DNA from: Myxococcales bacterium
GTDB lineage: Bacteria > Myxococcota_A > Bradymonadia > Bradymonadales > Bradymonadaceae
DNA length: 37,350 nt
Reading direction: 5' to 3'
Assembly (NCBI GenBank): GCA_007119595.1
Contig: SKPJ01000031.1
Span: 1-37,350, forward strand
Part shown: positions 8,971 to 37,350 of the stretch, in pieces
How the letters are laid out: each line of letters opens with the position of its first letter
Position numbering within the stretch: the stretch's first letter is position 1
Made by a program: the position numbers and the translations under genes
The notes under the pieces: generated by a model
What the model saw: only the letters and a program-made list of their open reading frames with translations
Told to the model about the DNA's origin: nothing
Database searches by the model: none

Positions 8971-9186
8971 ACAACCTCGCCTCGTCACTAGCCCGTAAAT
9001 TTCACGCGGATTCGTTCACGAGGCAAAGCAGGGCGCAGGGACAGGGGATGGGGATGACCGACGCAATTCACATTGCGGAGGGAGAGCGACCGACAGGGAG
9101 CGGTCACCGCCACTGTCCATGCGCATTTGCGAAGCCGCAGTAGATTCCGCGTGAGATTTGCGGGCTAGATGACGGGTTGAGTTTGT
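8971..9186. repeat. Long imperfect palindromic element (arms ~40 bp, ~83% identical, plus inner pairing segments)
   Basis: 8971 acaacctcgcctcgtcactagcccgtaaatttcacgcgga pairs with the reverse complement of 9146-9186, acaaactcaacccgtcatctagcccgcaaatctcacgcgga; inner hairpin CGCAAT-tcac-ATTGCG at 9062-9077. Confidence 0.85.
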
Positions 9187-9206
9187 CTGCACAGCGTGCG
9201 ACAATC
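9168..9206. repeat. Dispersed repeat copy 1: gatgacgggttgagtttgt-N8-cgtgcgacaatc
   Basis: 19 + 12 identical bases at identical 8-nt spacing to 36596-36634. Confidence 0.85.
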
Positions 9207-9594
9207 GGGCGCGCCGAACTGGATTTTTTCGCCTCGATGCCAGACCACTTTTTTTGAGTGTGAAATCATCGGCATTGTGGCATGTCCGTTGCGAATGAAC
9301 ATCCTTTGGTATTCGCGATCGGCCAGAGGATATGCGGTGGGCGTTGAGAAGCGCCACCGGTCACCAAGGGCGTTCAGATCTTGTGGTTCGAAGAGATCGT
9401 ATTGCTGATTTTGGTCCGGCCCTCGTGGTTGCGGTGATGGAATCGCCCCATTGAGACAGAAGGGTGCGAAAAATTGCGTGTACCGCCCGGCTCCAGAGTT
9501 GTCGTCCGAGGTGTTGAATTGAATCGATGCACAGGTTCTGCGAAGTGGACGCAGAAACGGTTGTGAATGGTCGGGGCAGGGAAACGAGGTCCAA

Positions 9595-34897: not shown

Positions 34898-35063
34898 ACG
34901 GAAGAACATTTAACTGAAACAAACGTCTCGCCGGCTGATTGAGCCATCTTTCGACCGATCCTCGCTTGAAGTAGCAATGCTACGCCTGCACTCGGTTCGA
35001 ACCAAAATCTGGCCCAATCATCTCGTCGGTACCGCGTTTCATTTAAATGACGTTCCGTTTAGC
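34893..35063. repeat. 171-bp imperfect palindrome between dnaE and recA
   Basis: Termini gctaaacggaa / ttccgtttagc; inner matches catttaa-tgaaac, tgattg.gcca; centre gtagcaatgctac at 34971-34983. Confidence 0.88.
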
Positions 35064-36634: not shown

Positions 36635-36762
36635 CCGCCCGTCGCTCCCGGTTTTTTCAATAGGATGGAATGGTCGATGGAGACGTCGCGACGAGCCTGG
36701 CACCGAGAGGTTCGAACTCGCAGTCTCACCGGGGTTCTCCGAGCAATAAGCGAGTGCCACCG

Positions 36763-37350
36763 ATGAGTTCCAAGGAAAAGGGTGCAAAACAAAAGGCAAA
36801 GCGCGACCTGGACAAGGTCTTGAAGGTCGCCGTCAAAGGGGGGGCCAGCGATATCCATATCAAGGCCGGATTGCCGCCGATTTTTCGGGTCGATGGGGCG
36901 CTGATGCCGTTGCGCGATGCGCGACGACTGAGTCCCGAAGAAATTGGTCAGATGGCGGCGGCGATCATGACCAAATATCAGCGCGAGCAGTTCGAGCGCG
37001 ATCTCGATCTGGACCTTTCCTACGGGGTGCCAGGGGTGGGCCGATTTCGAGTCAACGTCTTTCAGCAGCGAGGCTCGATCGGGCTGGTCTTTCGGATCAT
37101 TCCCTTCAAAGTGGCGGGGATGGAAGAGCTGTTATTGCCGGAAGTGATCGCGGAGTTGGCCGAGGAACGACGGGGATTGATCCTGGTCACGGGTGCAACG
37201 GGAAGTGGTAAGTCGAGACGCTCTGCGGCGAATGCTGCGCTACTTGGTTATAGGCACTATTATGACTGGGATAAAAAGAAATGGATTGATAGTGGGTTTG
37301 AAACAAAAGTTCAATACATCACAACAGAAATGACAGTCGATGAAATACAA
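36763..37350 (+). CDS. pilT: Twitching motility ATPase PilT, N-terminal part; 3' portion from about 37215 looks non-PilT (chimeric join)
   Basis: DLDKVLKVAVKGGASDIHIKAGLPPIFRVDGALMPL; FRVNVFQQRGSIGLVFRIIPF; RGLILVTGATGSGKS, then a switch to RRSAANAALLGYRHYYDWDKKKWIDSGFETKVQYITTEMTVDEIQ. Confidence 0.85.
   Translation, partial: MSSKEKGAKQKAKRDLDKVLKVAVKGGASDIHIKAGLPPIFRVDGALMPLRDARRLSPEEIGQMAAAIMTKYQREQFERDLDLDLSYGVPGVGRFRVNVFQQRGSIGLVFRIIPFKVAGMEELLLPEVIAELAEERRGLILVTGATGSGKSRRSAANAALLGYRHYYDWDKKKWIDSGFETKVQYITTEMTVDEIQ

Follow-up and report, generated by a model that had tools for sequence, protein, structure and literature searches.

The apparent PilT-helicase fusion at the end of a Myxococcales contig is very probably a chimera, made during assembly or in a read, where two genes share a P-loop string

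The stretch of DNA analysed here (the window, 37,350 bases) ends in an open reading frame that begins as a pilus retraction ATPase and finishes as something else. Does this frame encode a fusion protein, or were two genomes joined on the way to the assembly? An earlier sequence-only reading proposed a probable assembly chimera. The present analysis supports it: the window is an entire contig (C59), so that the sequence stops at 37350 because the contig does, not through an arbitrary choice of boundary; the orthologues of the gene are intact; and the sequence after the switch is of phage type and absent from the rest of the genome and from its relatives. We give a probability of about 95% to the reading that the end of C59 is chimeric, joined in assembly or in a read at a P-loop string shared by two genes.

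The terminal open reading frame starts at 36670, with a likely true start near 36764, and remains open up to 37350; across the switch its translation runs ...RRGLILVTGATGSGKS|RRSAANAALLGYRHYYDWDKKKWIDSGFETKVQYITTEMTVDEIQ. Its first part (36764–37212, forward strand) is the 5′ portion of a recA-linked pilT-family gene, encoding a PilT/PilU-type retraction ATPase through the Walker A motif GATGSGKS (about 37189–37212). This assignment draws on TIGR01420, on PilT structures and on the orthologues from four genomes of the same genus, which are 83–88% identical. The frame had been described as textbook PilT up to GATGSGKS with an abrupt change thereafter, and so it proved. Up to the GK it matches TIGR01420 (PilT/PilU) with E = 1.3e-42 over profile positions 2–135 of 343, and PilT crystal-structure chains with E of about 1e-36, and the PilT similarity ends there. 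Of the features that define the TIGR01420 family, the N-terminal domain and Walker A are present; the ATPase domain is incomplete, Walker B and the C-terminal part being absent. The score is 149.7 bits against a curated cut-off of 319.1 bits, and the match breaks off near position 141 because the contig sequence changes. The resemblance to type 4a pilus retraction ATPases covers residues 1–150, from the N-terminal domain into the RecA-like domain as far as Walker A, whereas everything beyond GKS is missing from the C59 gene, the Asp box, Walker B and His box being absent from the contig.

How the gene would normally continue can be read from its relatives. The PilT part has a homologue in 56 of 57 related genomes. 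Across the junction, the 29 best loci all went on as normal PilT with GSGKSTTLA (once GSGKSSTLA), in line with the expectation that PilT should continue with TTLA. The earlier reading had named the same junction in related genomes as a finding that would speak against a chimera; it was looked for and found in none of the 29 orthologues, the four same-genus genomes included, and all 57 relatives lack a homologue of the 46-residue tail that follows the switch. Two of the same-genus genomes (G001 and G003) carry complete pilT orthologues of about 400 residues. The neighbourhood is also shared: recA adjoins pilT in the window, and the DNA fetched for 21 of the 29 orthologous loci also has recA next to pilT.

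The change from PilT to 46 residues without PilT similarity happens within one codon. One could ask whether these residues are simply PilT that has diverged. Nothing was found in favour of this reading. Conservation at this stretch is high in all relatives, and the tail scores −0.6 bits on a PilT profile covering the same positions as opposed to 64.3 bits on a profile of viral helicases; the reading is refuted, and its probability is negligible. For the viral profile, 48 distinct viral segments were used. None of 2,000 shuffled versions of the tail exceeded 9.0 bits on it, and the PilT stretches of relatives at the same place scored below zero. The sequence that follows the P-loop therefore fits the DnaB-like helicase family, and the description of the tail as helicase-like is borne out.

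The tail (37213–37350, forward strand) is thus assigned, from phage and viral homology, the profile and GC content, as a piece of a phage-type DnaB-like replicative helicase, lying just 3′ of the P-loop and truncated by the contig end. On its own, the 46-residue tail matched no Pfam or NCBIfam family. A tblastn search of phage records returned 28 phages (of Bacillus, Staphylococcus and Mammaliicoccus), SPbeta-like among the matches listed, and the matches fall inside replicative DNA helicases where these are annotated; the best, in the helicase of an SPbeta-like Staphylococcus phage, is 41% identical over all 46 residues (E = 2e-3). Scans of IMG/VR gave 17 loci at first and then 128, of which the 80 kept are 37–56% identical to the tail. 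At full length, the viral homologues belong to the DnaB-like helicases, matching phrog_19 with E values as low as 5e-59 as well as Pfam DnaB_C. Compared with this group (phrog_19; DnaB_C, PF03796; an SPbeta-like and metagenomic viral branch), the tail aligns just past the P-loop, gap-free in the viral relative inspected, and shares GKSR(R), a common Y, YITTE and, downstream, DEIQ; it differs in consisting of 46 residues only, with no N-terminal domain and no more of the ATPase domain. One of the viral DnaB-like helicases (L173, 1501–1656) has an in-frame stop at the tryptophan position of this stretch (EE*INTG); either the phage may have reassigned the stop codon or the gene may be broken.

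Base composition changes together with homology. The 138-base tail has a GC content of 39.9% versus 57.6% for the contig, so that the fall in GC noted at the switch is real; none of the 3,708 other 138-base windows on C59 is as low, and only 0.13% of 17,573 such windows from 101 other contigs are. The closest viral loci have 27–33% GC. In a search for the source phage, exact DNA patterns from the tail and junction had no match in IMG/VR, and peptide patterns found no relative in the GTDB genomes scanned.

The DNA at the switch was compared with that of 29 PilT orthologues and 15 viral helicases. The interval 37189–37213 (forward strand), ggtgcaacgggaagtggtaagtcga, fits both genes, and the first base diagnostic of the helicase is 37214, where AGA (R) stands instead of ACN (T). 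The window reads GGAAGTGGTAAGTCGAGACG here; a PilT orthologue reads, for example, ..GGAAGTGGTAAGTCAACG.. (GSGKST), and a viral helicase ..GGTGGTAAGTCTAGACG.. (GKSR, often GKSRR) against AGTGGTAAGTCGAGACG in the window. Several viral homologues carry GSGKSRR or GGGKSRR, and one (L047/L193) has exactly ATGSGKSRR. The switch was said to fall at a P-loop string common to both families close to the end of the sequence; that placement holds, the end being 138 bases away.

The open frame across the junction could be taken to favour a real in-frame recombination, by which a phage helicase came to lie downstream of the P-loop of the recA-linked pilT, with either a broken pilT or a PilT-helicase fusion as the outcome. 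If true, the pilus motor would be disrupted or re-made. However, a join inside a shared P-loop coding motif is expected to continue in frame wherever such a string is shared, and so the open frame says nothing on function and is no sign of selection. The recombinant is unseen among the 29 orthologues, even within the genus, and the switch lies so near the contig end. In addition, the rest of such a phage helicase is absent from the genome, as is a second copy of the tail; the one full DnaB encoded there is an ordinary bacterial protein of 454 residues. We therefore regard recombination as very improbable, in agreement with the earlier view that it was much less likely than a chimera.

By the chimera reading, the bacterial sequence would run through recA and the pilT-family gene as far as the Walker A motif, where the assembly would cross into an AT-rich phage or mobile-element genome whose DnaB-like helicase would have a near-identical P-loop coding string; the contig then stops about one read or k-mer length past the crossing. 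No fusion protein would exist, and the real gene should go on with STTLASMVDYIN..., like its relatives. We infer that the two sequences were brought together in the assembler or in a chimeric read, and not in a cell. In short-read metagenome assemblies, chimeric contigs arise when shared k-mers link the graphs of different genomes (PMC7299287). The C59 end resembles such inter-genome chimeras in its compositional step at a shared conserved string near a contig end; here it was judged from the assembled sequence.

The setting is one of fragmentation. The source genome is a metagenome-type assembly of 5.24 Mb in 614 contigs, 87.8% complete with 3.3% contamination. A dispersed repeat of about 130 bases (34930–35062), between dnaE and recA, has 31 matches in the genome, itself counted, at 72–96% identity, and five contigs (C10, C103, C108, C304 and C326) terminate 119–134 bases into it. 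A stop 138 bases past a false link would be the same behaviour. Counted from its TCG, the tail is exactly 141 bases long, and 141 is the highest k that one widely used assembler applies by default. A fixed k-mer length was nevertheless rejected as a signature, since overlaps between contig ends vary from 54 to 120 among 102 contigs sampled, with no single fixed k, and the coincidence is not used as evidence.

Within the artefact reading, the join may instead have arisen in the library, by PCR or multiple-displacement amplification, through template switching at the P-loop, the assembler having followed a rare read. The contig stops after roughly one read length of tail, and the junction sits in a short homologous string. 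Moreover, the longest exact string shared between the junction and known viral homologues is 10 bases, a figure taken from the collections searched, which do not include the true source phage and yielded no source helicase at high nucleotide identity; a string of 10 bases is shorter than usual k-mers and is easier to reconcile with template switching than with a k-mer join. We consider this sub-case possible but hold it only tentatively.

With either origin, the apparent PilT-helicase fusion is almost certainly artefactual; its biology is ordinary, and nothing novel is indicated. Its only importance is as a warning: gene callers would label the end of C59 a 'PilT-helicase fusion', and a conserved P-loop string can link genomes that are unrelated where contigs end. 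About 160 bases at the end of C59 should be trimmed or masked ahead of claims of gene fusion or horizontal transfer.

Two further contigs were considered. The 3′ end of C305 (L128, about 9120–9272) has an abrupt AT-rich tail, with 36% GC in the last 138 bases versus 56% for the contig; it was considered as a second chimera and set aside, the tail having no long open reading frame and being probably intergenic. The missing C-terminal half of the recA-linked pilT was not found in the assembly, where only paralogues at 34–58% identity occur. Contig C128 was rejected as a candidate for it, its starting ATPase fragment reading as a PilB-type C-terminus. This contig (L014; 1–590 and 644–3015) holds the 3′ part of a pilB-type gene, followed by a second, complete pilT, which is a paralogue, and a pilC-like gene, so that the genome has a separate canonical pilB-pilT-pilC cluster besides the recA-linked pilT.
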